This document shows, piece by piece, positions 26,932 to 42,149 of a DNA stretch of 42,149 nucleotides (the first letter of the stretch is position 1; each line of letters opens with the position of its first letter). The DNA is from Gemmatimonadales bacterium (GTDB taxonomy: Bacteria > Gemmatimonadota > Gemmatimonadetes > Gemmatimonadales > JACORV01): assembly GCA_030697825.1 (NCBI GenBank), contig JAUYOW010000151.1:1-42149 (forward strand). The letters are read 5' to 3'. The notes beneath the pieces were generated by a model. The model was not told the DNA's origin, searched no databases, and saw only the letters and a list, made by a program, of their open reading frames with translations. A program made the position numbers and the translations under genes.

Positions 26932-27828
26932 CTACGCGGCGTTCCAGAATCGCATCAACGCCGCCCCCTCCGGACAGTCGCGCAGCTTCTCGAAGGCCCG
27001 CTCGCGGATCTGGCGGATGCGCTCCCGCGTGACGCCCATCAGCGCGCCGATCTTCTCGAGGGTCATCGCCTCGGAGCCCGACTCGAGACCGTAGTAGAGG
27101 TAGAGGATCTTGCGCTCGCGCGGCGTGAGATACCTAAGGAAGACCTTGTCGATGAAGCCGCGCATCAGGTTGGAGTCCGTCGTCTCCTCGATCTCGCTGC
27201 CGTCCACGCCGGCGAAGCGCTCACCCAGCGTCGCGGCATCGCGATCGGTACGGTCCACCGGCGCGTCCAGCGACAGCTCGCTCGCCGTCATCCGTCGGGC
27301 TCTGCGCACGTTCTCGACCGAGTCCCCGAGGGCACGCGCGATCTGGTCGTCCGTCGGGTCGCGGCCCAGCTCCTGCGCCAGCACCATCTCGGTCCGCGAC
27401 ATCCGAATGAGCTGCGCGTTCTGGTTGAGCGGGATCCGCACGCTGCGCGTCTGCTCGGCCAGCGCCTTGAGCACCGCCTGCCGCACCCACCACACGGCGT
27501 ACGAGATGAACTTCACGCCCTGGTTCGGATCGAACTTCTTCACCGCCTTGAGCAGCCCCTCGTTGCCGATCGCCACCAGCTCCGACAGGTCGAGCCCGTG
27601 CCCCTGGTACTTCTTCACGTACGAGATGACGAAGCGCAGGTTCGCGGTGACGAGCCGCTCGGCCGCCGCGGGATCGCCCTTTTGTGCCAGCCGAGCCAGC
27701 CGCCGCTCTTCGGCGGCATCGCCTATGAGAGGGAGCCTTTGTATGTCCTGGAGGTACTGATCGAATGCGCCGGACGCGCTCTGACGGAAGAAACTCTTAG
27801 CCTTGATAGTGGTCTTGGCCCGCCGCAT
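26932..27828 (-). CDS. RNA polymerase sigma factor, RpoD/RpoS family (group 2)
   Basis: A 298-residue sigma-70 factor without region 1.1. Region 1.2 is around FDQYLQDIQRLPLIG, region 2 holds NLRFVISYVKKYQGHGLDL, the GNEGLLKAVKKFDPNQGVKF block and ISYAVWWVRQAVLKAL, region 3 includes SELSLDAPV, and region 4 the helix-turn-helix MTLEKIGALMGVTRERIRQI. The -10-contacting and -35-contacting parts are complete, so it should recognise TTGACA/TATAAT-type promoters like those seen in this window. ATG 27828 has AAGGGG seven bases ahead, and a good promoter lies 57-86 bp upstream. Confidence 0.95.
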   Translation of the reverse strand: MRRAKTTIKAKSFFRQSASGAFDQYLQDIQRLPLIGDAAEERRLARLAQKGDPAAAERLVTANLRFVISYVKKYQGHGLDLSELVAIGNEGLLKAVKKFDPNQGVKFISYAVWWVRQAVLKALAEQTRSVRIPLNQNAQLIRMSRTEMVLAQELGRDPTDDQIARALGDSVENVRRARRMTASELSLDAPVDRTDRDAATLGERFAGVDGSEIEETTDSNLMRGFIDKVFLRYLTPRERKILYLYYGLESGSEAMTLEKIGALMGVTRERIRQIRERAFEKLRDCPEGAALMRFWNAA

Positions 27829-27884
27829 GCTCGGTCCCCTTTACGGTTCTCTGACACTGTCGGCGAAGTGGAACTGGGGGGCCC

Positions 27885-27914
27885 ATAATAGGAATGGGTC
27901 GAAAGTCACGTCAA
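27885..27914 (-). promoter_or_regulatory. Promoter of the sigma factor gene
   Basis: On the minus strand TTGACG (27914-27909), 18-base spacer, TATTAT (27890-27885). Leader of about 50 bases to the ATG. The region up to 28080 is much more AT-rich than its surroundings and has no gene. Confidence 0.65.
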
Positions 27915-27924
27915 GGGAACAAAA

Positions 27925-27933
27925 TTATCCACA
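27925..27933 (+). promoter_or_regulatory. Consensus DnaA box
   Basis: TTATCCACA, the perfect R1-type DnaA box, lies 11 bp upstream of the -35 of the sigma factor promoter. A second, weaker relative is TTATCGTAA near 27982. Could regulate the sigma factor by DnaA or be chance. Confidence 0.4.
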
Positions 27934-28080
27934 TCACTAAGTTGTTTCACTCCTGAGCGTTGGAGAAATCGTAAACAATTGGTTATCGTAAAAAGACGAT
28001 GGTAGCTGGAAGATGGCAGGTTAAACGATTGCGGGACAACGTCTTAGGCTCGGACATCGGGCATTCGACGTCAGCCGAGT

Positions 28081-29187
28081 TCACCGGCAGGCGTCGATCG
28101 CGCTCCTTACCACGTCCTCTCCGATGCGCACCGTCCATTCACCGTCGGCACTCTGCGCGATCTCGCCGACTTTTCGCGGCAGGGTGAAGCGCAGCCGGCC
28201 GGCCCGCACTTTCTTGTCGCCCGACATCGCCTCGAGCAGGTCGTCCGCGCGTAGCGCGGCGGGAATGGTCGTAGGTAGGGCGTAGCGCTCCAGCATCGCG
28301 GCCAGCTCCGCGCGGAGTCCGGGCTCGGCCACGCCGCTCGTTTCAGCAATCCAGGCCTCTGCCACCATGCCGATCGCGACCGCCTCGCCGTGCAGCAGGT
28401 CGAAGCCGCTCTTCGCCTCGACGGCGTGACCGATAGTGTGGCCGAAGTTCAGCACCTGCCGGCGGCCGGCCTCGCGCTCATCGTCGGCGACGACGCCCGC
28501 CTTGATCTCCACGCTGCGACGGACGATGGGTTCAAGCACCGAGAGGTCGCGCGCCAGCACGCGCTCGGCATCGGCGAGCGAGGCGGCGTACCCGGCATCG
28601 GCGATGACTCCATGCTTGATCGCCTCCGCCATCCCCGAGGCCAGCTGATGGCGGGGAAGTGTGGCGAGGAGGTCGATGTCGGCGACCACTCCTCGCGGCT
28701 GGTGGAACGCGCCGACCAGGTTCTTCCCGGCGGGCACGTCCACTCCGGACTTCCCGCCGACCGACGAATCGATCATCGCGAGGAGTGAAGTGGGCACCTG
28801 CACGTACGGGATGCCTCGCAGAAAGGTGGCGGCTACGAAGCCGGCGAGGTCGCCGGCCACTCCGCCGCCCAGCGCGATCACGGCGCCGTCGCGGCCGATG
28901 CGAGCGGCGAGCAGGGCGTCGGTCAGCGCGCTCCACGTCTCGCGCGTCTTGTTCCACTCGCCCGCGGCGAAGGTGAAGATCCGCGCCTCGAGGCCGGCCT
29001 CCTTGAGGCGCGCCAGGAGCGCCGCGGCGTGAAGATCGGCAACGTGCTTGTCGGCGATGACGGCGTAGGCGTGCGCGGGGCAGCGATCCCTGAGCAGCGC
29101 CGGCAACTCCGCCAGCGCGCCTCGCCCCACGATCACATCGTACGAGGCGTCACGAGTCTCATGGATGGGGACACGAATGCTCGTCAC
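28081..29187 (-). CDS. aroB: 3-dehydroquinate synthase
   Basis: Second step of the shikimate pathway (DAHP to 3-dehydroquinate), NAD and zinc dependent. The 368 residues are normal length. Family motifs: ALGGGVAGDLAGFVAATFLR (NAD loop), PTSLLAMIDSSVGGKSGVDV, the KNLVGAFHQPRGVV lysine, GMAEAIKHGVI, and the zinc histidines in LNFGHTIGHAVE and LLHGEAVAIGMV. Start ATG 29187. It follows the cobalamin adenosyltransferase gene on the same strand by 61 bp, with a CCCGCTC tandem repeat between them. Confidence 0.97.
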   Translation of the reverse strand: MTSIRVPIHETRDASYDVIVGRGALAELPALLRDRCPAHAYAVIADKHVADLHAAALLARLKEAGLEARIFTFAAGEWNKTRETWSALTDALLAARIGRDGAVIALGGGVAGDLAGFVAATFLRGIPYVQVPTSLLAMIDSSVGGKSGVDVPAGKNLVGAFHQPRGVVADIDLLATLPRHQLASGMAEAIKHGVIADAGYAASLADAERVLARDLSVLEPIVRRSVEIKAGVVADDEREAGRRQVLNFGHTIGHAVEAKSGFDLLHGEAVAIGMVAEAWIAETSGVAEPGLRAELAAMLERYALPTTIPAALRADDLLEAMSGDKKVRAGRLRFTLPRKVGEIAQSADGEWTVRIGEDVVRSAIDACR

Positions 29188-29220
29188 GGCCCCCCGAAGG
29201 CGCGGCGCCGGCGCGAAAGG

Positions 29221-29246
29221 TCCCGCTCCCCGCTCCCCGCTCCCCT
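29221..29246. repeat. CCCGCTC tandem repeat (3 units)
   Basis: Three 7-bp CCCGCTC units followed by CCCC, in the gap between aroB and the adenosyltransferase gene. Same sequence type as the arms of the element in the metH leader (1819-1840). Confidence 0.7.
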
Positions 29247-29248
29247 CG

Positions 29249-29797
29249 TCACCACGTCACATCCTTCTTCCGCGCCCGCTTGTTGGCGAGCCGGGCCAGG
29301 ACGAAGAGCAGGTCCGAGAGCCGGTTCAGGTAGACGATGATCTCCCCCGGCACGGCCTCCTCGTGGGACAGGCGGACCACCGCGCGCTCGGCGCGGCGGC
29401 AGGCGGTGCGCGCCAGATGGAACGCGGCGGCCTTGAGCGTGCCGCCGGGGAGCACGAAGGCGCGTAGCGGCGCCAGTTCCTTCTCCGCCTGGTCTATGGC
29501 GCGTTCGAGCGCGGCCACGCGTTGTTCGGAGACGACGACCTTGTCACGCTGCTTCTGCTTGAGCCGCTGCGGCCGAGGCGTCGCCAGCGCGCCGCCGATG
29601 GTGAAGAGGTCGCGCTGGATGCCGGCCAGGAGCTGGTCGCCGAGCTTCGACGGCGGCGTGGCGCGCACCATGCCTATGGCCGCATTGGTCTCGTCCACGT
29701 CTCCGTAAGAGGCCACGCGGATGTGGTCCTTGGGCACGCGGCCGCCGCCCATGAGACCGGTCTCGCCGGAATCTCCCGTCTTGGTATAGATCTTCAC
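29249..29797 (-). CDS. Cob(I)alamin adenosyltransferase, PduO type
   Basis: Adenosylates cob(I)alamin with ATP. The 182 residues start at GTG 29797 with VKIYTKTGDSGETGLMGGG, the ATP-binding N-terminal motif. Also visible are SYGDVDETNAAIGMVRA, FVLPGGTLKAAAFHLARTACRRAER and the C-terminal LNRLSDLLFVLARLAN, all family signatures including the Arg and Glu residues that bind ATP. A longer frame to 29965 has no family similarity. With metH it shows that this organism uses cobalamin, though no cobalamin riboswitch is seen here. Confidence 0.95.
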   Translation of the reverse strand: MKIYTKTGDSGETGLMGGGRVPKDHIRVASYGDVDETNAAIGMVRATPPSKLGDQLLAGIQRDLFTIGGALATPRPQRLKQKQRDKVVVSEQRVAALERAIDQAEKELAPLRAFVLPGGTLKAAAFHLARTACRRAERAVVRLSHEEAVPGEIIVYLNRLSDLLFVLARLANKRARKKDVTW

Positions 29798-30021
29798 GCC
29801 GGGCAAGGTACGCGTGGCCGGGGGAGGGCGTCCAGCGCCGCGGGCCGCGCCCATCGGCCGCGGCGAGGGGGCCGCCCGTTTGCGTTCGGTGGTCTGGGCG
29901 GCTGTCTCGGGGGGTGATCCGGTGTCGAAGACGGAGTGGTCAGTCGATCGCCGGCTACCTGACACTGGCGTCCGCGGCCGGGATACCGCATCGTCAGGCG
30001 CTACCCATCACCGAAAGAGCC

Positions 30022-32841
30022 ATGTCCGAGCCGTACTCCGAAACCGACACCCGCCAGCAGATCATCGACCGCCGCCTGCGCCTTGCGGGCTGGAACGTGG
30101 ACGATCCGTTGCAGGTGATCCAGGAGCTCGACATCTACGTCGGTGGAGGGAAGCCGGGCGCCGTGCGCGAGCCGCAGAGGGAGTACGCCGGTCACCAGTT
30201 CGCGGATTACGGGCTGCTGCTTCGGGGGAGACCCACCGCCGTCGTCGAGGCCAAGAAGACGAGCCGCGACGCCGAGGTCGGTCAGGAGCAGGCCAGGCAG
30301 TACGCCGAGCTACTCCAGAGGATTCACGGCGGCAAACCACCGTTCATCATGTACACGAACGGCCACGACACCTTCTTCTGGGACTCCGAGCAGTACCCTC
30401 CTGCCAAGGTCGTCGGGTTCCCCACGCCGAGCGATCTGGAATGGCTGGCCGAGCGACGGGCAGGGCGCGGCGCGCTCTCGGTCGAGCTCATCAACCCGGC
30501 CATCGCGGGCCGCGACTACCAGATTGAGGCCGTTCGCACGCTGCTCGATGCGATCGAGTCGGGACGCCGCAAGTTCCTGATGGTCATGGCGACGGGCACC
30601 GGCAAGACGCGAGTCGCCGTGGCGCTGGTGGATGCCCTCATGCGCGCGCACTGGGTCAAGCGCGTGCTCTTTCTGGTGGACCGCATTCCCCTCCAGGAAC
30701 AGGCGCTCGGCGCCTTCAAAGAGCACCTGCCGGCCTCTCCCTTCTGGCCACGCGAGGGAGATGCCGGGTTCGTGCGGGACCGCCGCGTCTACGTCACGAC
30801 CTACCCCACGATGCTGAACCTGATCGAGGCCGGAAAGACGCCGGCCACCTGGATCTCGCCGTTCTTCTTCGACCTCATCATCGCCGACGAAAGCCACCGC
30901 AGCATCTACAACACCTACCAGCAGGTGGTGCGCTACTTCCACGGCCTAACGCTCGGCCTTACGGCAACCCCACGCGATCAGGTCACCCACGACACCTTCG
31001 ATCTGTTCGACTGTCCGACCCACGACCCGACGTTCGCCTACGGTTTCGACGAGGCGGTGCGGCACGACCCGCCCTACCTGTGCGACTTCGAGGTGCTCAA
31101 GGTCCGCACCAAGTTCCAGGTCGCGGGCATTCGCGGGCCGCAGCTCAACGAGCCGGAGAAGGAGCAGCTGGCGCTCGAAGGGCTGGACCCCGAGACGATC
31201 GACTTCGAGGGCACCGACCTCGAGCTGAAGGTCACCAACAGCGGCACCAACGCGTTGATCGTGCGGGAGTTCATGGAGGAGGCCATCAAGGACCCCACGG
31301 GAACGCTCCCCGGCAAGTCCATCATCTTCGCCTGCTCCGTGAAGCACGCGCGGCGTCTCCAGGAGCTGTTCGACCAGCTGTACCCCGAGCACCGCGGCCG
31401 GCTCGCGCGGGTCCTCGTGTCGGACGATTCCAGGGTGTATGGCAAGGGTGGGCTGCTGGACCAGTTCAAGACGCAGGACATGCCCCGGGTGGCCATTTCG
31501 GTGGACATGCTCGACACGGGTGTGGATGTGCTCGAGGCGGTGAACCTGGTGTTCGCCAAACCGGTCTATTCGTACGTGAAGTTCTGGCAGATGATCGGGC
31601 GCGGCACGCGGGTGCTGAAAGCCGATCCCGCGCTGCGCAAGCCGTGGTGCCCGGAGAAGGACAAGTTTCTCATCATCGATTGCTGGGCCAATTTCGAATA
31701 CTTCGAGATGCATCCCAAGGGCCGCGAGCCCGGAACGCAGGTGCCGATGCCGGTGCGGCTGTTCCGCGCCCGGCTCGACAAGCTCGAGGTCGCGCTCGCC
31801 CGGTCGGCGGGCGAAGTGGCCGAAACGATCAAGACCGACCTTCGTGCCGATCTCGAGGCGCTGCCCGCGAACAACGTGGTGGTGCTGGAGCGTCAGGCCG
31901 ACCTGGCGCGCGTGCAGGGTGACGCCTTCTGGGCCCGCCTCGGCCGAGACGATCTCGGCTTCCTCCGGCAAACCATCGCGCCCATTCTGAGGGCCAAGTC
32001 GGACGCCGAGTTCAAGGCGCTGCGATTCGAGACCGACGTCGTCGAGTTCGGCACGGCGCTGCTCGCCGGTAACCGCGACGCGATGGACGTGCTGCGGGAG
32101 ACGATCGTCCAGCAGGTTGCCGAACTCCCGCTCGGCGTCAACTTGGTCCTGAAGGAGCGGGCTCTCATCGAGGCCGTGCTCGCGCCGGCGTGGTGGGCTG
32201 CGGTGTCGGATATCGGCCTGCGCGATCTCGCGGCAAGACTCGCGCCTTTGATGCACTTCAGGCAACAGCGGGAAGGCGCGATGGTCTCGCTCAACCTCGC
32301 CGATATCACGGCCCAGCACGAACGCATCGCCGTGGCCCCCGACGGGCGCGACATGCCGATAGCGGCGTACCGCCGGCGCGTCGAGGAGGCGGTGCGCGCG
32401 CTCCTGGCCGAGAACACGGTGCTGCAGCGGCTCCAGGCAGGCGAGCGGGTCTCCGATGCCGACCTCCGCGCGCTCGCCGAATTGCTCCGGCGGCAGGACC
32501 CCGGCATTGACGAGGAGCGGCTCCGGAAAGTCTACGATTTGCGCACCGCCAGCTTCGTCCAGCTCGTCCGGCACGTGCTGGGCGTCGAGCCCCTTGAGCG
32601 GTGGTCCACTCTGGTGACGCGCGAGTTCGAGGAGTTCATTGCGGCGCACACCACGTACTCGGCGCTCCAGATCCGCTTCCTACAGACCCTCCGTACGTTC
32701 ATTCTCCAACGGGGCAGGCTAGAGCGGCGCGACCTGGTCGAGTCGCCGTTCACGCAGCTGCATCCGCAGGGGGTCCGAGGCGTGTTCCCGCCGCGGGACA
32801 TCGAGGAGATCCTCAGCTTCGCCACTGAGTTGGTCGCCTAG
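30022..32841 (+). CDS. hsdR: Type I restriction enzyme R subunit (EcoEI-like)
   Basis: The motor and nuclease subunit of a type I restriction system; 939 residues. The N-terminal nuclease has Asp62, Glu76-Ala-Lys78 (TAVVEAKKT) and the QxxxY motif Gln90-Tyr94. The helicase has Walker A ATGTGKT (190-196), DESH (289-292), LTATPRD and, in domain 2, SVDMLDTGVD and QMIGRGTR. The C-terminal EcoEI-type domain ends in FPPRDIEEILSFATEL. I start at ATG 30022, where the conserved MSEPYSETDTRQQIIDRRLR begins; GAAAGAG is the ribosome site. All catalytic residues are intact. It is separated from hsdM and hsdS by a regulated promoter and a fic gene. Confidence 0.95.
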   Translation: MSEPYSETDTRQQIIDRRLRLAGWNVDDPLQVIQELDIYVGGGKPGAVREPQREYAGHQFADYGLLLRGRPTAVVEAKKTSRDAEVGQEQARQYAELLQRIHGGKPPFIMYTNGHDTFFWDSEQYPPAKVVGFPTPSDLEWLAERRAGRGALSVELINPAIAGRDYQIEAVRTLLDAIESGRRKFLMVMATGTGKTRVAVALVDALMRAHWVKRVLFLVDRIPLQEQALGAFKEHLPASPFWPREGDAGFVRDRRVYVTTYPTMLNLIEAGKTPATWISPFFFDLIIADESHRSIYNTYQQVVRYFHGLTLGLTATPRDQVTHDTFDLFDCPTHDPTFAYGFDEAVRHDPPYLCDFEVLKVRTKFQVAGIRGPQLNEPEKEQLALEGLDPETIDFEGTDLELKVTNSGTNALIVREFMEEAIKDPTGTLPGKSIIFACSVKHARRLQELFDQLYPEHRGRLARVLVSDDSRVYGKGGLLDQFKTQDMPRVAISVDMLDTGVDVLEAVNLVFAKPVYSYVKFWQMIGRGTRVLKADPALRKPWCPEKDKFLIIDCWANFEYFEMHPKGREPGTQVPMPVRLFRARLDKLEVALARSAGEVAETIKTDLRADLEALPANNVVVLERQADLARVQGDAFWARLGRDDLGFLRQTIAPILRAKSDAEFKALRFETDVVEFGTALLAGNRDAMDVLRETIVQQVAELPLGVNLVLKERALIEAVLAPAWWAAVSDIGLRDLAARLAPLMHFRQQREGAMVSLNLADITAQHERIAVAPDGRDMPIAAYRRRVEEAVRALLAENTVLQRLQAGERVSDADLRALAELLRRQDPGIDEERLRKVYDLRTASFVQLVRHVLGVEPLERWSTLVTREFEEFIAAHTTYSALQIRFLQTLRTFILQRGRLERRDLVESPFTQLHPQGVRGVFPPRDIEEILSFATELVA

Positions 32842-32887: not shown

Positions 32888-32919
32888 GTTACCACGTTAT
32901 TGGACCCTATTACCACGTT
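32866..32919. promoter_or_regulatory. Three operator half-sites around the fic promoter
   Basis: AACGTGGTAA at 32866-32875 (inside the promoter spacer), its reverse complement TTACCACGTT at 32889-32898 (over the start site) and a second TTACCACGTT at 32910-32919 (early in the transcribed region). Centres are 23 and 21 bp apart, close to two helical turns, so a dimeric or cooperative repressor could bind one face of the DNA. The winged-helix tail of the Fic protein is a natural candidate. Confidence 0.8.
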
Positions 32920-33982
32920 TCCGGGCACGGCATTGACCTCGTTCGAACCCGAATACCTCGAGCGCATCCGCTTCTCCAGCGGCGATGCTGCCACGCTCAG
33001 GACTCTTGGCCAGTTCCGGGGACGCCAGGATCTGTTCAGGCGGCAGGCGCCCGAGGTCCTGGCGGCGCTGCGGGAAGCCGCCGTCATCGAATCCAGCGAG
33101 TCGTCCAACCGCATCGAGGGGATCACGGCGCCGCGCGAGCGGATCGAGGCTCTGATCCTCAAGCCGACCGCGCCCCGCGATCGCTCGGAGGAAGAGATCG
33201 CCGGGTATCGTGACGCGCTGAACCTCATTCACGAATCCGCGCCGGAGATGGCGTTCTCGGCCAACGTCGTTCTCCAGTTGCACGGCATGCTGTACCGCTA
33301 CCACGCGGGCGTGGGTGGGCGGTGGAAGATGGCTCCGAACGAGATAGTGGAGCGCAACGCCGACGGCAGCCTCAGGCGGGTGCGATTCGTCCCGGTTCCG
33401 CCGGTGGCCACGCCAAACTTCATGGAACGGCTGGCCGCTGGATACGCTCGGGCGCATGACCTCCAGCGCGAGCCGCTCGTGCTCGTTCCGCTGGCCGTCC
33501 TCGACTTCCTGTGCGTTCATCCCTTCGCCGACGGCAACGGACGGATGGCGCGACTCATCACGCTGCTGCTGATGTACCAGGCGGGCTACGAAGTCGGCCG
33601 GTACATCAGTCTCGAGCGGATCGTCGAGCAGTCAAAGGAGACGTACTACGAGGCGCTCGAAGCGAGCTCCCAACGTTGGCACGACGGAAAACACGACCCG
33701 CTGCCGTGGATGACCTATCTGTGGGGAGTGCTCCTCCGGGCCTATGGCGAGTTCGAGGAGCGTGTCGGGACGATTCGCACGGGACGCGGTGCCAAGACCG
33801 ACCTGGTCGAGCAGGCGGTGGCACGCCGCACGCGGCCGTTCGGCATCACGGAGATCGAGGCCGAGTGCCCGGGGGTGAGCCGCGACATGGTGCGGCACGT
33901 GCTCCAGCGGCTTCGCGACGAGGGGAAACTCGCGGTACAGGGCACCGGACGCGGCGCGCGGTGGGCGCCGCAGAACCAGTAA
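32900..33982 (+). CDS. Fic family protein with C-terminal winged helix
   Basis: Fic proteins transfer AMP or other nucleotide parts to hydroxyl groups of target proteins. The active-site motif HPFADGNGRMAR is complete at 207-218. The N-terminal inhibitory helix SNRIEG (Ser69, Glu73, Gly74) matches (S/T)xxxE(G/N), so this is a class II, self-inhibited enzyme. About residues 285-355 look like a winged helix (FGITEIEAECPGVSRDMVRH, then VLQRLRDEGKLAVQGTG). The first possible start is TTG 32900, only some six bases after the expected transcript start; TTG 32933 (LTSFEPEYLERI) is an alternative. It is 12 bp ahead of hsdM and in one operon with it. Likely regulates the system or serves as a toxin guarding it. 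Confidence 0.93.
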   Translation: MDPITTFPGTALTSFEPEYLERIRFSSGDAATLRTLGQFRGRQDLFRRQAPEVLAALREAAVIESSESSNRIEGITAPRERIEALILKPTAPRDRSEEEIAGYRDALNLIHESAPEMAFSANVVLQLHGMLYRYHAGVGGRWKMAPNEIVERNADGSLRRVRFVPVPPVATPNFMERLAAGYARAHDLQREPLVLVPLAVLDFLCVHPFADGNGRMARLITLLLMYQAGYEVGRYISLERIVEQSKETYYEALEASSQRWHDGKHDPLPWMTYLWGVLLRAYGEFEERVGTIRTGRGAKTDLVEQAVARRTRPFGITEIEAECPGVSRDMVRHVLQRLRDEGKLAVQGTGRGARWAPQNQ

Positions 33983-33994
33983 GGGAGTCTCGGC

Positions 33995-35551
33995 ATGCTC
34001 ACTTCGGCTCTGCGCTCCAAGGTGGACGCGCTGTGGGACAAGTTCTGGTCGGGCGGGATCGCCAATCCGCTCACCGCGATCGAGCAGATCAGCTACCTGC
34101 TCTTCATGCGGCGGCTCGACGCGCTGGATGAAAAGCGCCGGGGGGACGCCGAGTTCCTGAAGCAGGAGTTCCGGTCGCTGTTTGGCGGCACGTACACCAC
34201 GCGCGCCGGCAAGAAGCGGCCCTGCCAGGAGCTGCGCTGGTCGAAGTTCCGGCATCTGCCCGCCGAGGAGATGCTGGAGCATGTGCGCGACAACGTTTTC
34301 CCGTTCATCAAGACGCTGGAGGACGGCGGCCAGGTCTTCACGCGCTACATGCAGGACGCGGTGTTCATCATCCCCAAGGCGTCGCTGCTGGTCGAGGCGG
34401 TGGGGATCATGGACGATCTCTACGCCGAGCTGGAGCGGGAGCGGCAGGACGCGGGGCAGAGCTTCCAGGACGTGCAGGGCGATCTCTACGAGTATCTGCT
34501 GGCCGAGATCCAGAGTGCCGGCAAGAACGGCCAGTTCCGGACGCCGCGGCACATCATCCAGCTGATCGTGACGCTGGTGGATCCGAAGCTGGGCGAGGAG
34601 GTCTGCGATCCCGCCTGCGGCACCGGCGGCTTCCTGTTAGGCGCCTATCAGCACATCCTGACCCAGCATACCAGCGCCGAGCACCGGTTCATGGGCGAGG
34701 ACGGGATCGAGCGCGGGCTGGTGGGTGACCGGCTCACCGACCCTCGGCAGTGGGAGGCGCTCAAGGAGCGGACCTTCCACGGCTCCGACTTCGACACCAC
34801 GATGGTGCGGATCGGGTTGATGAACCTGCTGCTGCACGGGATTGACCGGCCGAAGCTGGGCTACATGGACACGCTGTCGAAGCGCTATGAGGAGCGGGAG
34901 CGGTACGACGTGGTGCTGGCGAATCCGCCGTTCAAGGGGAGCATAGACAAGGGGGACATTCACGAGGAGCTGCGGCTCAAGACGACGAAGACCGAGCTGC
35001 TGTTCGTGAATCGCATCATCAACCTGCTCAGGGTGGGTGGCAGGGCTGGGGTGATCGTGCCGGACGGGGTGTTGTTCGGCTCGAGCAACGCGCATCGCGA
35101 CCTCAGGAAGATCCTGGTGGATGAGTGCGAGCTACAGGGGATCGTGAAGCTGCCGGCGGGGGTGTTCAAGCCGTACGCCGGGGTGAGCACGGCGGTGCTG
35201 CTCTTCGCCAAGGGTGGCCGGACCGAGCACGTCTGGTACTACGACATGCAGGCCGACGGCTGGTCGCTGGACGACAAGCGGGAGAAGGTGGCCGAGAACG
35301 ACATTCCGGACGCGATCGCGCGGTGGAAGGCGCGGGACCCCACCAAGGACACGGATCGGACGGCGAGGGCGTTCTTCGTGCCGGTGGGGGAGATTCGGGA
35401 GAACAAGTACGACTTGTCGCTCAATCGGTACAGGGAAGTGGCGTACGAGGAGGCGGCGTACGAACCGCCCGCCGTGATCATCCAGCGTCTTCAAGAGATC
35501 GAGGCCGAGATATCGCGCGATCTCGAACAGTTGGAGTCGTTGATCAAGTGA
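33995..35551 (+). CDS. hsdM: Type I restriction-modification methyltransferase M subunit
   Basis: A 518-residue N6-adenine methyltransferase. The N-terminal HsdM_N domain (WDKFWSGGIANPLTAIEQ, about 14-31) leads into the SAM-binding motif DPACGTGGF at 205-213 and the catalytic NPPF at 310-313, followed by VIVPDGVLFGSS. Length and order match HsdM. A GGGAG ribosome site lies seven bases before ATG 33995. The stop codon shares its last base with the hsdS ATG (TGATG), so the two are translationally coupled. It methylates the host sites and, with HsdS, guides HsdR. Confidence 0.96.
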   Translation: MLTSALRSKVDALWDKFWSGGIANPLTAIEQISYLLFMRRLDALDEKRRGDAEFLKQEFRSLFGGTYTTRAGKKRPCQELRWSKFRHLPAEEMLEHVRDNVFPFIKTLEDGGQVFTRYMQDAVFIIPKASLLVEAVGIMDDLYAELERERQDAGQSFQDVQGDLYEYLLAEIQSAGKNGQFRTPRHIIQLIVTLVDPKLGEEVCDPACGTGGFLLGAYQHILTQHTSAEHRFMGEDGIERGLVGDRLTDPRQWEALKERTFHGSDFDTTMVRIGLMNLLLHGIDRPKLGYMDTLSKRYEERERYDVVLANPPFKGSIDKGDIHEELRLKTTKTELLFVNRIINLLRVGGRAGVIVPDGVLFGSSNAHRDLRKILVDECELQGIVKLPAGVFKPYAGVSTAVLLFAKGGRTEHVWYYDMQADGWSLDDKREKVAENDIPDAIARWKARDPTKDTDRTARAFFVPVGEIRENKYDLSLNRYREVAYEEAAYEPPAVIIQRLQEIEAEISRDLEQLESLIK

Positions 35552-36732
35552 TGCGCGCTGCGGCGATCACCGATGTTGCGGAGGTGAATCCGTCGTTGCC
35601 GCGCGCCCTGAGAACGCGCGACGGCGCGGAGGCCGTCCCGTTCCTCCCGATGGCTGCCGTGTCAGAAGACGGGCGCGCGTCCTACCACGAGCGGAGATCG
35701 CTGGCCGAGCTGATCACGGGCCACACGTATTTCGAGCGCGGGGACGTGATCGTTGCCAAGATCACGCCATGCTTCGAGAATGGCAAGGCGGCACACCTGA
35801 TCGACCTACCGGCAGATTTCGGCTTCGGGTCGACCGAATTCCACGTTGTTCGTCCTGGACCCGAGTTGGACGGTCGGTATCTGTTTCATGCTCTTTGGAA
35901 CACTGGTTTCCGGAGGATCGGGGCGCGATACATGACCGGTACTGCGGGGCAGAAGAGGCTACCGGCAGACACACTCAGGCGGCATCGGGTCCCCCTGCCT
36001 TCTCTCGCCGAGCAGCGGCGGATCGCGGCGGTGTTGGACAAGGCGGATGGGATTCGGCGGAAGCGGCGGGAGAGCCTGCGGCTACTGGACGAGTTCCTGC
36101 GCTCGGCATTTCTGGAGATGTTTGGGGATCCGGTGAGGAATGAGAAGGGGTGGCCGACGATGCCACTGGCGGAGCTTGGTCGGGTCGTCACTGGGTCCAC
36201 TCCACCGACCGACGACGTCGACAACTACTCGGATGCAGGTCTTCCGTTCATCAGACCAGCGCAGTTGGACGAGGCCTCGCCTATCACAGCGTCTGACAGG
36301 CACGTCGCGCCCAAGGGCCAGCGCCTCGTCGAGGTTCTGCCCGCAGGAGCTGTGCTATTCTGCGGCATTGGCGCGACGATCGGGAAGAGCGGGTACACGG
36401 CCGTACCAGTGTGCGTCAATCAGCAGATTCATGCCGTGATACTGAATCGCGACACCATGACTCCGGCGTATCTGTTGATGGTACTTCGGCAAGCTCGAAC
36501 GGCGATCGTGAGCCGCGCGACTGCTACGACGCTGCCGATACTCAAGAAATCGGCGTTCGAACGACAACGCGTTCCGACACCTCCCATCGGGCTTATTGAA
36601 CGATATGCGAGGCTCTATGACAGGGCCGTTGCGGTCCTCAATCGCTCGATGCAGGCGGGCGCCCACGCAGCCGACCTCTTTGACTCGCTGGCGCAGCGGG
36701 CGTTTGGTGGGGAGGGGCAGCGAAGCTCATGA
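35551..36732 (+). CDS. hsdS: Type I restriction-modification specificity subunit
   Basis: A 393-residue DNA-recognition subunit. Two target-recognition domains are visible, one around residues 1-150 ending in RHRVPLPSLAEQRRIAAVLD, the other around 190-350 (PLAELGRVVTGSTPPT to KKSAFERQRVPTPP), each followed by a helical spacer. The spacer KADGIRRKRRESLRLLDEFL is typical. Start ATG 35551 overlaps hsdM. The second half has lower GC than the first, as expected when recognition domains are exchanged by recombination. The recognised sequence cannot be predicted. Confidence 0.93.
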   Translation: MRAAAITDVAEVNPSLPRALRTRDGAEAVPFLPMAAVSEDGRASYHERRSLAELITGHTYFERGDVIVAKITPCFENGKAAHLIDLPADFGFGSTEFHVVRPGPELDGRYLFHALWNTGFRRIGARYMTGTAGQKRLPADTLRRHRVPLPSLAEQRRIAAVLDKADGIRRKRRESLRLLDEFLRSAFLEMFGDPVRNEKGWPTMPLAELGRVVTGSTPPTDDVDNYSDAGLPFIRPAQLDEASPITASDRHVAPKGQRLVEVLPAGAVLFCGIGATIGKSGYTAVPVCVNQQIHAVILNRDTMTPAYLLMVLRQARTAIVSRATATTLPILKKSAFERQRVPTPPIGLIERYARLYDRAVAVLNRSMQAGAHAADLFDSLAQRAFGGEGQRSS

Positions 36733-36782: not shown

Positions 36783-38777
36783 TCACCACTTTGTGCTAGT
36801 GCGCTCCGCGACCTCGAGCCGAGCCTTGTCGGGCACGTCGCGGATCTCGCTTCGATAGCTGGGGAGGGCCCAGCTCCAGACTAGCGCGAACGGAGGAATG
36901 ACAAGCCCTGAAAGTGGAAGAATCAGGCTGAGCAGATCCCGTCGACTCCCGCCTTCCCAGGCCCAGCCAAACAGCTCCCGCACGCCCCAGGCCGTGCTCA
37001 GGCCCAGAAGTAGGCAACCAAGCACCCGCAGCAGCAGCCGATTCCTCGCGGCACGCTCCAATCTGATTTCGACTTCCTCCCGGGCGATATCCTCGATCCG
37101 TTTTCGCGAGGTTTCCACTTGCGCCTTTTCATCGAGGGCCTGCGCGACTATCACCCGAGCTTCCCCATGATCAGCGACAAGCTTCGCGGTGGCTCGTTGG
37201 TAGGCACGCTCGATCTTGAGCCTAAGCTCCGGATCGTTCCGCTTTGCGCCGGCCATTCGCGCCGCGTGTATCTCCCGTGCGAGCTCCTGGACAGTTTCCT
37301 TGGGTAGTTCCTTCACATCCCGATGTATCTCGTCCAGCCATCGCAAGTCTTCGACAGCGTACGTGGCCTGAGAGACCTCTACTTCGTTGGAAATGAGTCT
37401 GGCTAGGATCGGGCCAAATTGCACTGCGTCAACCTTCGTTCCCGACTGGTCCACGGCCAGGATCTGGAGCAACGGGTCGAGCGACACCCACAAGGGGGTA
37501 CCCGTCGGGCCGGCCCATCGAAGGGCGAGGTCGTGCATCGTCAGGTCAAGCGTCAGAACCCATGCGCGATCGCCACGCTCCAGTAGGTGTCGGACCACGC
37601 CGGTCACAGCGGCATCGTGGCGGGCTAGGTGAATCGGTTTCGGTCGGTGCCGCCGCTCGCGCCAATGAGTCTGGATCTGAGTGACAAGCTGCTTGTCTTC
37701 CTCAGCACCTGCGGCTGCCTTCGCCACGTCTGGCTCGTCGAGCAGAGTAATCCGTAGCTGATCCCCGATGCCTACTGGGGGATCCATGATCTGATCGAAG
37801 AACCTCTGATAGTCGGCCCTGTCTCTGCAGTAGCGCCCTACGGCCGTCTTTATCCATGGGTCCTCAGAGTCTTCAAGCACAGCCGTTCCGTATCGGTCGA
37901 TTACCCGCAGCGTGTCCGTTGTCCAGCGACTGACGACGCGTCGGTACTCTTCACGCGTCGGGTAGCAATAGAACAGCTGCGCATTGATCGCTCGCAGTGC
38001 CTCTCCAAGCGCTTGGAATGCAGCAGCCGGCCTGCTGGCTTCGAGGGCGATGGCCAACAGAGCATTGGTATCGAGAAAGACCATGCTATCGCGGAGTTCC
38101 CGGGTGCTGATCGGATCGGCGCCAATCCCTGCACACACCAGCCGCGACGCAAAGGTTGCCATCCCCAGCGACCAGAGATGCTCCGTGTCCTCGGGGAGAC
38201 TGCTGTCCAAGAAGCGCTTGAATCCGGATATCAGCGCATCAACCCGTGCTTGCAGACCCACGTTGGTCGCCGTCGTCTTGACGACGGAACCGAGACTTGG
38301 ACCAGCCGCGCCAATGATGGGCGTCTTGCGGGTGATCGCGGCCACCCATCGGTCGCCGTAAGTCACGAAAAACGACACGCATGCGTCGTCAAACCACCTA
38401 GCCAGCTGCGATCGATCTAGGTCAGCTGGAAAATGGCGATCCAGGATGGATAGAACTCGCTCTCTACGCCTTATGACTTGGGCTCCAAGTTCTTCCCAGC
38501 TCTTCCGCCTCAGCCTCCATTTCCTGTAGGTGGGCTCAACGACCCCTTGTTGTTCAAGCAGTCGCAGCGCTTCGAGAATCTCCTGTCTAGGCGGCGACCC
38601 CCCGGCAACCATCTCGGTCACTGAGCGACAGACTCGATCGACCGAGACTCGTGAATCGCGCCCGGCGAGGAGGAGAGCCTTCGCTGCAAGCTGGGCATAG
38701 GCGCGTGTTCGAAGAGGCTCCGCAACACTACTGTATCGGAGGTGAGCCGCGATTACTTCTTGCCGAAGAAGATCCAT
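36783..38777 (-). CDS. Uncharacterised PIN-like nuclease with winged helix and two C-terminal membrane helices
   Basis: A 664-residue protein of unknown family, convergent with hsdS. Residues 15-105 look like a winged-helix or TPR-like helical domain (LEALRLLEQQGVVEPTYRKW). The centre carries a PIN-like core: Asp236 in VFLDTNALL, Glu276/277 in YPTREEYRR, Asp388 in ARHDAAVTGVVRHLLE and Asp411/416 in VLTLDLTMHDLAL, the four acidic positions expected of PIN nucleases but with wide spacing. A long charged helix (about 490-580) may form a coiled coil, and two hydrophobic helices (about 582-602 and 615-637) anchor the C-terminus. ATG 38777 is preferred; TTG 38810 is the first possible start. GC is low, suggesting transfer. 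Confidence 0.75.
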   Translation of the reverse strand: MDLLRQEVIAAHLRYSSVAEPLRTRAYAQLAAKALLLAGRDSRVSVDRVCRSVTEMVAGGSPPRQEILEALRLLEQQGVVEPTYRKWRLRRKSWEELGAQVIRRRERVLSILDRHFPADLDRSQLARWFDDACVSFFVTYGDRWVAAITRKTPIIGAAGPSLGSVVKTTATNVGLQARVDALISGFKRFLDSSLPEDTEHLWSLGMATFASRLVCAGIGADPISTRELRDSMVFLDTNALLAIALEASRPAAAFQALGEALRAINAQLFYCYPTREEYRRVVSRWTTDTLRVIDRYGTAVLEDSEDPWIKTAVGRYCRDRADYQRFFDQIMDPPVGIGDQLRITLLDEPDVAKAAAGAEEDKQLVTQIQTHWRERRHRPKPIHLARHDAAVTGVVRHLLERGDRAWVLTLDLTMHDLALRWAGPTGTPLWVSLDPLLQILAVDQSGTKVDAVQFGPILARLISNEVEVSQATYAVEDLRWLDEIHRDVKELPKETVQELAREIHAARMAGAKRNDPELRLKIERAYQRATAKLVADHGEARVIVAQALDEKAQVETSRKRIEDIAREEVEIRLERAARNRLLLRVLGCLLLGLSTAWGVRELFGWAWEGGSRRDLLSLILPLSGLVIPPFALVWSWALPSYRSEIRDVPDKARLEVAERTSTKW

Positions 38778-39114: not shown

Positions 39115-39318
39115 ATGTCCGAGGGTCCAGGCACGGCTCCGGCGTCCCAGCGCGAGGAGGATCTCGCAGAGATGATCCGGAAGGCCCAGGAAAACCCGGG
39201 AGTCAGGGAAGTGATGGAGGTCTACTCGCGCGCCCAAGCGACGCTGACGCAGGCGCAGCCGTACCTCCGAGCGGGTGACCGATCCATCCAGTCGGTGAGC
39301 GATCGAACATCGGGATAG
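39115..39318 (+). CDS. Small helical protein (67 aa) paired with SDH_sah protease
   Basis: ATG 39115 is preceded by TAGGAGG, one of the best ribosome sites in the window. The product has a disordered start and an amphipathic helix from about residue 12 to 50 (EEDLAEMIRKAQENPGVREV, then MEVYSRAQATLTQA), ending in a polar tail. No catalytic motif. It is 11 bp ahead of the protease gene and certainly in one operon. Might be an adaptor, a substrate or an antitoxin-like inhibitor; not a recognised family. Confidence 0.75.
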   Translation: MSEGPGTAPASQREEDLAEMIRKAQENPGVREVMEVYSRAQATLTQAQPYLRAGDRSIQSVSDRTSG

Positions 39319-39329
39319 GCGACCTCGCC

Positions 39330-40319
39330 ATGCCAACATGGAGCGGCATCCTCAACGAGCTTCTGAATACGCGAGCCCCATCAGGTCAGCCTGACTTCGA
39401 TGGGGTTCGGCGCAAGTATCTCGCCAGCCTGCACGCCCACACCGGTCGCAGCGTCATCCTCTACGCCACGAAGTGGACGCAGGGGGCGACCAACGTTGAT
39501 CCGGATACGATTTCCATCAACGATGAGGACCTTCAGGGGTTGATGGAGGTCATTCACGGCCTCCCCGACGCCCCGCTCGACCTCATCGTGCACAGTCCCG
39601 GTGGGTCGGCTGAAGCCACGGAGATGGTCGTCCAGTACCTGCGCTCCAAGTTCTCGCACATCCGGGCGATCATCCCGCAGGCAGCGATGTCAGCTGCGAC
39701 GATGCTGGTCTGTGCCGCCGACGAGATTGTCATGGGCAAGCACTCCGCCCTCGGGCCGATTGACCCGCAGTTCATCATCGGCGGTCCATTCGGCCGGAGC
39801 TCCGTGCCCGCGCAGGCGATCCTCGACCAGTTCGACCTAGCCCGGGAGGAGTGCAAGGATCCGGCCAAGCTCGGCGCTTGGCTCCCGATGCTGAGCCAGT
39901 ACGGTCCCGCGCTCCTCAAGCAGTGCGAGAACGCGCTCGCCCTCGCCGAGGACCTCGTCGCCGAGTGGCTGGCGCGGTGGATGTTCAAGGGAAAGTTGGA
40001 CGCCGAAACGATTGCGCGGTCCATCGCCGGGCAGCTGCGCGACCACGGCAGCTTCAAGAGTCACGGCCGCCACATTACGCGAGATAAAGCGCAGGCGATG
40101 GGGCTTGCGATCGTGCCTCTGGAAGCCGATCAGCAGTTTCAGGATCTGGCGCTGTCGGTGTTTCACGCCACGACGCACACGTTCGGTGCTACCGCGTGCG
40201 TCAAGATCATCGAGAACCACTTGGGCAAGGCCTTCGTGAAACTCCAGCAAGCGATACAGGTTCCGATCATGATGCCGCAGGCACCGCAGCCTGTGGCACC
40301 TGTCCCTCAGGGGCCGTGA
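39330..40319 (+). CDS. SDH_sah / ClpP-SppA-like serine protease
   Basis: A 329-residue protein of the serine dehydrogenase proteinase family (SDH_sah), related to SppA and ClpP. The oxyanion motif HSPGGS is at 88-93 (LIVHSPGGSAEATEMV), the nucleophile Ser121 in QAAMSAATMLVCAADEI, and GKHSALGPIDPQF follows as in the family. There is no signal peptide or membrane helix before the domain, so it is soluble. The C-terminal end is Pro/Gln-rich (MMPQAPQPVAPVPQGP). Length is normal. It shares an operon with the 67-residue protein and lies among defence-type genes. Substrate unknown. Confidence 0.88.
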   Translation: MPTWSGILNELLNTRAPSGQPDFDGVRRKYLASLHAHTGRSVILYATKWTQGATNVDPDTISINDEDLQGLMEVIHGLPDAPLDLIVHSPGGSAEATEMVVQYLRSKFSHIRAIIPQAAMSAATMLVCAADEIVMGKHSALGPIDPQFIIGGPFGRSSVPAQAILDQFDLAREECKDPAKLGAWLPMLSQYGPALLKQCENALALAEDLVAEWLARWMFKGKLDAETIARSIAGQLRDHGSFKSHGRHITRDKAQAMGLAIVPLEADQQFQDLALSVFHATTHTFGATACVKIIENHLGKAFVKLQQAIQVPIMMPQAPQPVAPVPQGP

Positions 40320-40359: not shown

Positions 40360-40635
40360 CTATGTCAGACTCATGCCGGAGTCGTCCATTGGGCGGGGCC
40401 GGCCGTGTTGTGGGCTGTCAACAATTGCCTGACGCTGCGCCGGGCGGCGCGACATCTTGGCGTCGAGCGTGATCAGAAACCAGCCGCTCTCCTTGATGCC
40501 TGCGAATATCACCTCGTCCGTCGCAGCAGCACCGAATTCATTGGGTGAATGGCGAAACTGACAGTCTTCCTGGTCGAGGGCCTGCAGCGCGCGCGCGAGC
40601 TGTGGCGGGAAGTTCGCGTCCAGCAGGAAGATCAA
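40360..40635 (-). CDS. DUF5615 PIN-like toxin, probably shortened
   Basis: A 91-residue protein starting IFLLDANFPPQLARALQAL after a TTG start at 40635 that overlaps the antitoxin stop as TTGA. The FLLDAN Asp, the DEVIFAGIKESG segment and WFLITLDAKMSRRPAQRQAI are the core of the DUF5615 PIN-like family, which pairs with DUF433 antitoxins. Family proteins usually go on for 30 or more residues after the RQAI region; here the sequence becomes unlike the family (VDSPQHGRPRPMDDSG) and stops. A late frameshift or truncation is likely, so toxicity may be lost. Confidence 0.75.
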   Translation of the reverse strand: MIFLLDANFPPQLARALQALDQEDCQFRHSPNEFGAAATDEVIFAGIKESGWFLITLDAKMSRRPAQRQAIVDSPQHGRPRPMDDSGMSLT

Positions 40636-41354
40636 GCGGCGTGAGCGAGCTGGGCCTCGAAATCGATCGCGGCGCCCACTTGGGCCGACGTGAGCTCGAA
40701 CGCCCGCCCCACCGTTCTGGCGGGGTTCCCCGAGGCGTAGAGGGCCAGGATGTCGGTACGGATCCGGGTGCCGACGAGGACTGGCGCACCGAACGAGATG
40801 TGGGGATCCAGGACGATCGGCACGTCGCGCCCGCACGGGAACCAACGCTCCGCCAGCGAGGTCGTCGCGTCGAAATCGATCTCCTCCACGTAGTGCGCGA
40901 GTATTCTCCCCGCGATCAGCTGGAGCGTCGCGCGCCTACCGCTCACTTGCAGCAAGTCAGGCTGCGACTCTACTGCCGAGACGCCGACGAAGACCTGCTC
41001 GTGATCGGTGAAGACCCGCCGGTCCGCGAACGGATGAGCGGTGCCGAACAGCTCCCCAATTCGGCGGGCGGCGACCCGAACCCGCTGTAAGGGCACACCC
41101 TTGTTGACGAACCCCATTACGACGCGCAACTCCATGAGCTCGAGGAAGGACAGCGAAACCGTGTCGTCGATCGTGGGGAGGTCTGTGCGAACGACCGGAG
41201 GCTGCCGGGTGCGACGCGGCGAGCGGCCGGACTTGAGCCAGTAAGTGTATCCACGCACCCACCGGCCTAGCCTCGTTGGCGTCAAGCGAAGAAGGCGGGC
41301 AGCCTCGGCCCGGCTGTAGATGCCTACTCCCAGGGGGACGTGTGGACCGCTCAG
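40632..41354 (-). CDS. DUF433-domain antitoxin with MerR-like N-terminus
   Basis: The C-terminal DUF433 domain (IVLDPHISFGAPVLVGTRIR, then DILALYASGNPARTV, about 170-225) and a middle domain with MGFVNKGVPLQRVRVAARRI are clear. The N-terminus is a helix-turn-helix, GIYSRAEAARLLRLTPTRL, then GRWVRGYTYW. The first standard start (TTG 41285) would cut this helix in half. The conserved part continues upstream, where the only fitting start is CTG 41354, four bases after a full AAGGAGG. I therefore give CTG 41354 (240 residues) as the likely start. It is coupled to the toxin gene by a TTGA overlap. Confidence 0.8.
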   Translation of the reverse strand: MSGPHVPLGVGIYSRAEAARLLRLTPTRLGRWVRGYTYWLKSGRSPRRTRQPPVVRTDLPTIDDTVSLSFLELMELRVVMGFVNKGVPLQRVRVAARRIGELFGTAHPFADRRVFTDHEQVFVGVSAVESQPDLLQVSGRRATLQLIAGRILAHYVEEIDFDATTSLAERWFPCGRDVPIVLDPHISFGAPVLVGTRIRTDILALYASGNPARTVGRAFELTSAQVGAAIDFEAQLAHAA

Positions 41355-41502: not shown

Positions 41503-42149
41503 CTAGGCGACGCTGGCGACAGCCGGCATCTCGTCCCACTCGCGATCATCCAGGAGCCGTCCACCAGCCTTCGGCGTGCGCCCACCAACCTGCTTGAAGA
41601 AGAAGGCGACTCCCGCATCAAGGCATTGGTCTCTGATGCTTCGAGCCCAGCCAGGATCCAGCCGCCGATAGCCGATTCCGCTCTCGCCTCCCACGATCAC
41701 CCAGTGGATGTCCGTGAGGTCAAGGCACATCGGACCCAACAGCGGCTCGCACGACAAGAAGCGCACGTCCGCCGGTACCATGCGCAAATGGTCCACGCGG
41801 CGCACCACATCCTGGTTCTCGACCGATGTGCCGATCCAGATGTGATCGGGAATCGGTCGCCCCGCGAACAGGTCCCCGTTCCGTTTCCAGAATCGCAGCG
41901 CCCGGGCCGGCCGCTTCGTGAGCACCTGGTAGATGTGTCGGTCCACACTCAGCATGACTTCGAACACCTGCCGCACAAATGCTTCGGGGATATCCGCGTG
42001 GAACAGGTCGGACATGGAGTTGACGAAAACGAGACGCGAGTCCCTCCAGCGATCGGGCTGCGGCAGCCGCTCGGGCCAGAGCCTTACCGCGAACGGATCG
42101 CTTCGGTTCGTCGGGGTATCCACGACCGGGAGGCGGCGGCCGTATACCT
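41503..42149 (-). CDS. DUF5131 family protein (phage Gp37/Gp68-like), cut by right edge
   Basis: At least 215 residues of the DUF5131 family. The segment SRLVFVNSMSDLFHADIPEAF is the family hallmark, with YQVLTKRPARAL, WIGTSVENQDVVRRVDHLR, RFLSCEPLLGPM and WVIVGGESGIGYR following in order. The N-terminal metal-cysteine part (TWNPVTGC-like) lies beyond 42149: the frame stays open to the edge and VYGRRLPVV upstream of GTG 42123 still fits the family, so this GTG is not the real start. The family is radical-SAM-like and often sits beside three-Cys-motif partner genes and in mobile DNA. Role unknown. Confidence 0.85.
   Translation of the reverse strand, partial: VYGRRLPVVDTPTNRSDPFAVRLWPERLPQPDRWRDSRLVFVNSMSDLFHADIPEAFVRQVFEVMLSVDRHIYQVLTKRPARALRFWKRNGDLFAGRPIPDHIWIGTSVENQDVVRRVDHLRMVPADVRFLSCEPLLGPMCLDLTDIHWVIVGGESGIGYRRLDPGWARSIRDQCLDAGVAFFFKQVGGRTPKAGGRLLDDREWDEMPAVASVA

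Follow-up and report, generated by a model that had tools for sequence, protein, structure and literature searches.

A putative membrane-tethered PIN-like protein encoded beside a type I restriction-modification operon in Gemmatimonadales

A gene on the minus strand of the window (the whole 42,149-nucleotide stretch of Gemmatimonadales DNA that was analysed) encodes a 664-residue protein which, with moderate confidence, we consider to be a membrane-tethered ribonuclease of the PIN family, a one-gene effector against phage that restrains itself and is of the abortive-infection type. The gene and its sole detected relative each stand beside a different type I restriction-modification (RM) operon, which makes it probable that the protein is an as yet unnamed anti-virus effector. 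At the level of sequence, it combines a set of acidic PIN positions with a predicted hydrophobic hairpin, in a defence-rich setting and with a patchy distribution. The gene and the parts of its product are as follows:

36783..38777, minus strand: gene of the PIN-like membrane protein, 664 aa; its full-length homologue, 40-42% identical, comes from another Gemmatimonadota family
38502..38657, minus strand: N-terminal helical region, residues 41-92, possible winged helix (visual pattern only)
38103..38492, minus strand: conserved helical region, residues 96-225, 42% identical to the homologue; possible sensor or autoinhibitory part (putative function)
37428..38090, minus strand: PIN-like domain, residues 230-450 (PIN_3 match on the core, acidic set, element order in the model, fold list)
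38070-38072, minus strand: D236, acidic PIN position, identical in the homologue
37947-37949, minus strand: E277, acidic PIN position, identical in the homologue
37614-37616, minus strand: D388, acidic PIN position, identical in the homologue
37545-37547, minus strand: D411, acidic PIN position, identical in the homologue
37041..37232, minus strand: long charged helix, residues 516-579, possible coiled coil (sequence pattern)
36981..37037, minus strand: predicted transmembrane helix 1, residues 581-599 (19-residue hydropathy 1.84 versus 2.22 in the homologue)
36879..36935, minus strand: predicted transmembrane helix 2, residues 615-633 (19-residue hydropathy 2.2 versus 2.25 in the homologue)

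The preliminary description of this DNA had placed a 664-residue protein at these positions, and this holds, with the strand now assigned as minus: the open reading frame (ORF) begins with an ATG at 38777 and ends with a stop codon at 36785-36783, and the same interval is packed with stops when read as the plus strand. Since the predicted product aligns over its whole length with the homologue from another Gemmatimonadota family at 40-42% identity, the ORF is, on sequence grounds, a true gene rather than a chance ORF. The lower GC content noted earlier was also confirmed (60.5% versus 64.5-66.7% for hsdR, fic, and hsdM). Codon usage is likewise unlike that of the neighbouring genes, with a score of about 0 versus 0.2-0.4, and the true frame still scores best among the frames.

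The central part of the protein probably adopts a PIN-like fold, although this is not proven. The domain begins at the motif VFLDTN, and the Pfam model PIN_3 matches residues 233-322, with an E-value of 1.6e-4 when the whole protein is searched and of 4.5e-5 with the core alone. At 22.9-24.7 bits, these matches miss the curated cut-off of 27 by 2-4 bits, and no profile reached its curated cut-off in the Pfam search of the 664-aa protein. D236 and D411, the acidic residues named in the preliminary description, are present, and together with E277 and D388 they are identical in the 40%-identical homologue, in which N238 is also kept. The two halves of the PIN-like domain are the best conserved regions between the proteins (49% and 50% identity versus 30-45% elsewhere), although conservation drops in an insertion near residues 301-340.

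An AlphaFold model of the core (residues 215-455), built from the two-sequence alignment, is weak (pLDDT 56, pTM 0.47), and a full-length model made without an alignment is poorer (pLDDT 44). At this low confidence, the core model places strands at VFLD, LFYC, RIT, and AWVLTLD, followed by a last strand, with helices between them, which corresponds to the PIN order. In a fold search with the same weak model, about 43 of the 50 best PDB matches were nucleases of the PIN/FLAP superfamily, including FEN1, Exo1, XPG/Rad2, HARP RNase P, and VapC and its relatives, none of them individually significant. The best PDB match had an E-value of 0.036, and none fell below 1e-3 in the searches of the PDB and of viral structures; the top viral match, likewise not significant, is named 'PIN like domain'. 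A sequence search of the PDB returned no protein of the PIN kind, and when profiles were compared with those of four PIN_3 proteins from the window genome, about 20 residues aligned at low probability, covering only the LDTN motif. The earlier reading of the protein as a PIN-like nuclease is thus favoured by the sub-threshold PIN_3 match, the acidic set, and a fold list rich in PIN/FLAP members, and stops short of a significant structural match; structure prediction against PIN families, proposed at the time as a check, returned the PIN order of strands and helices at low confidence. Known PIN enzymes have a metal-dependent site, and judging from its sequence the present protein may be a metal-dependent nuclease as well, its catalysis being presumed.

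The neighbour of the gene in the window is a type I RM operon that also includes a Fic-domain gene:

29914..32841, plus strand: hsdR, type I restriction subunit, EcoEI-type (Pfam ResIII and EcoEI_R_C; PADLOC REase_I)
32900..33982, plus strand: Fic-domain gene between hsdR and hsdM (Pfam Fic, 1.4e-12; best PADLOC match SoFic, 1.2e-31)
33995..35551, plus strand: hsdM (Pfam N6_Mtase and HsdM_N)
35551..36732, plus strand: hsdS, specificity subunit, whose start overlaps the hsdM stop (Pfam Methylase_S; PADLOC Specificity_I)

The gene does lie beside hsdS, as first described, and the two are convergent, hsdS ending at 36732 and the PIN-like gene at its stop at 36783. On its other side, positions 39115-40319 of the plus strand hold a 67-aa ORF and then a gene for an SDH-type ClpP-like serine proteinase (39330-40319), divergent from the PIN-like gene. 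On the minus strand, overlapping ORFs at 40360-41285 encode a DUF433-type protein together with a small PIN_10/DUF5615 protein, arranged like a toxin-antitoxin pair. The gene at 41503-42123 (minus strand) encodes a DUF5131 (phage Gp37/Gp68-like) protein with strong PADLOC matches to the candidate models PDC-M41B and PDC-M30B; the contig ends just past this gene, so that the island cannot be followed to its far end.

The sole other carrier found, genome G128, belongs to another family of the same class, and its homologue adjoins another type I RM operon, divergent from hsdR. Between the two loci, the RM proteins (HsdR 29% and HsdM 33% identical) are less alike than the PIN-like proteins (40%), which suggests that gene and operon do not simply travel as one cassette. 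Flanking the homologue and its RM operon are a Dsr1-like SIR2 protein (L007:4630-8019, minus strand) and a Lamassu/ABC-3C pair consisting of LmuB (DUF3732) and MC3 (L007:17552-19866, minus strand). Farther off in the same defence island, a 505-aa protein combines a SAP domain with a sub-threshold match to the FokI cleavage domain (L007:632-2149, plus strand). The role of defence effector proposed earlier gains from this second locus, with its different type I RM operon, Dsr1, and Lamassu/ABC-3C, and from the absence of the window island in relatives. Counting neighbours in defence islands, which had been suggested as a check, places 2 of the 2 known copies beside type I RM operons; as only two members of the family were found, the context argument for defence rests on n=2 loci. 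With two loci, and with defence genes clustering with RM operons anyway, a functional tie to RM is not established.

Such a tie is what the first alternative assumes. By analogy with PrrC, the PIN protein might guard restriction by monitoring the adjoining type I RM enzyme, or the anti-restriction proteins of phages, and be unleashed when RM is blocked; we regard this as unlikely. Each of the two known copies has a type I RM operon next to it, even though these operons differ to the extent given above. The window's genome assembly has a single HsdM_N locus, the hsdM of this operon (G128 has three), and PrrC, an RM-linked anticodon nuclease, is a precedent (PMC12707154). Type I RM operons are, however, common in defence islands, which gives adjacency a high base rate. 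The arrangement also differs between the loci, convergent with hsdS in one and divergent from hsdR in the other, so that the gene is not co-transcribed with RM. Moreover, the RM lineages are unlike each other, so that no conserved physical partner suggests itself, and a membrane anchor would be unexpected in an RM-bound guard. It is rather unlikely that the protein is a membrane-anchored PIN counterpart of PrrC, which would sense anti-restriction at the membrane, abort infection, and work in turn with type I RM lineages that are unrelated to each other.

The anchor itself is likely: hydrophobic segments are predicted at the C-terminus of both homologues and point to a two-helix membrane hairpin, in agreement with the two membrane helices of the preliminary description. 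The charged helix upstream (residues 516-579) is helical in the full-length model, whose confidence is low (pLDDT 44), and has one moderately hydrophobic heptad phase, which leaves the proposed coiled coil plausible but not established. At the other end, residues 1-95 are 37% identical to the homologue; the winged helix described there was recognised by no Pfam model and stays a visual impression. The hairpin might itself be the effector, making a pore or disrupting the membrane, with the PIN-like domain serving as an RNA-binding sensor or regulator. SLATT two-helix domains are predicted to form pores in conflict systems (PMC7159879), and the C-terminus of the homologue weakly matches the calcium uniporter family MCU (sub-threshold, E 0.048). 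This match lies far under the cut-off and occurs in one homologue only, though, and the membrane part belongs to the regions of lower conservation (33% identity versus 49-50% in the PIN halves), whereas all four acidic residues are kept; we therefore hold a pore-type effector to be clearly improbable.

Another alternative is a toxin of a toxin-antitoxin pair, VapC-type toxins making up the majority of bacterial PIN proteins. Here it is very unlikely: VapC has about 130-150 aa, whereas the present protein has 664 aa and carries helical and membrane regions besides, and no neighbouring small gene common to the two loci was recognised. The search for an antitoxin shared by both loci gave no convincing small ORF and only scattered short GC-rich matches, uncorrected statistically; it compared genes that the two loci share, and a non-homologous antitoxin would escape it.

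The PIN-like gene is rare and patchy in its distribution. Overlapping samples of 395 genomes phylum-wide, 394 from the class, 121 from the family to which the homologue belongs, and 288 from the order of the window genome yielded G128 as the one further carrier. No homologue was found in plasmids, phages, or IMG/VR viral contigs, and the GTDB pattern scan returned only the G128 contig (Gemmatimonadetes bacterium SB0664_bin_10, VXQO01000082.1; locus L007); since such scans rely on short exact stretches, they may have missed distant relatives outside the phylum. Weak matches at L003-L006, L011, and L012 were rejected as chance, lying in wrong frames or inside unrelated genes, for instance those of a PHP/DNA polymerase X type protein at L011 and of GroEL at L012.

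The window island starts right after a cluster of rpoD-like, aroB, and cobO genes (26932-29965, minus strand), with a boundary near 29914. This locus is conserved in synteny in five family relatives of the window genome; beyond it, the stretches compared contain no RM or PIN gene, and ordinary genes where read. As the island is absent from the conserved locus of these five relatives, it was probably gained by horizontal transfer. A membrane-bound housekeeping ribonuclease outside defence, analogous to RNase Y or YacL, is already disfavoured by the patchy distribution and barely credible: membrane-tethered RNases with housekeeping roles are known and the island directly follows ordinary genes, but the gene is carried by only two sampled genomes, is missing in genus and family relatives, and sits within an inserted island with atypical codon usage.

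In the mechanism that we infer for the membrane-tethered PIN effector, covering RNA target, self-restraint, sensing, and abortive infection, the predicted C-terminal hairpin of both homologues would fix the protein at the inner membrane with its nuclease in the cytoplasm. The N-terminal helical region may silence the PIN domain and sense infection, no antitoxin being recognised beside either copy. Upon infection, the site formed by D236, E277, D388, and D411 would cut RNA, probably tRNA or mRNA, and phage production would stop; this step is modelled on VapC and other PIN families, and on DS-3 as a validated PIN system. On this reading the gene travels in defence islands, and it occurs beside type I RM operons.

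As the preliminary description had supposed, no described family has this layout: no Pfam, NCBIfam, PHROGs, or PADLOC family spans the full protein, and PADLOC-DB 2.0.0 gave no profile for the window protein (E 0.1) or its homologue (E 0.001). A membrane-anchored PIN defence protein was not found in the open-access literature either. RNase Y and YacL are membrane-tethered bacterial nucleases with N-terminal anchors, encoded by widely conserved housekeeping genes; the present protein is likewise predicted to be a nuclease held at the membrane by helices, but those enzymes differ in the position of their anchors and in domain content. With VapC and PIN_3 proteins (PF13470) it shares the start motif, the acidic positions, and a sub-threshold profile match, yet it is far larger, has no recognised antitoxin, and carries an N-terminal helical region and a C-terminal hairpin. 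PARIS (AriA/AriB), in which a nuclease effector cuts tRNA in answer to phage anti-restriction (PMC12707154), works in a way that parallels the guard alternative, but consists of two genes whose products form one large complex, and its nuclease is not described as PIN. PrrC is embedded in EcoprrI and activated upon its inhibition by T4 Stp (PMC12707154). Both known copies of the present gene resemble it in encoding a ribonuclease, here a predicted one, at a type I RM locus. PrrC, however, lies within the RM operon and is nucleotide-regulated, whereas the present protein is PIN-like, apparently membrane-anchored, and separately transcribed; regarding homology to PrrC, Pfam and NCBIfam gave only sub-threshold PIN or chance matches.

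The nearest tested precedent is DS-3 (DefensePredictor), a one-protein PIN defence system without antitoxin whose catalytic mutants no longer protect and which is thought to be auto-inhibited until infection (PMC13092281). The present protein would share with it the single gene, the PIN ribonuclease, the lack of a cognate antitoxin, and possibly the auto-inhibition thought to act in DS-3. The PIN domain of DS-3 is in contrast described as split between the N and C terminus, and the account consulted mentions neither a membrane hairpin nor RM linkage for DS-3 (PMC13092281). Validation of PIN ribonucleases as anti-phage proteins that act alone is only recent. Given the DS-3 precedent, the new element is thus the membrane-anchored layout rather than single-gene PIN defence. 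If correct, a nuclease fixed at the membrane raises the question of what is sensed, be it DNA entry, membrane damage, or anti-restriction proteins, and its recurrence beside two different type I RM operons bears on how restriction disarmed by phages is backed up.
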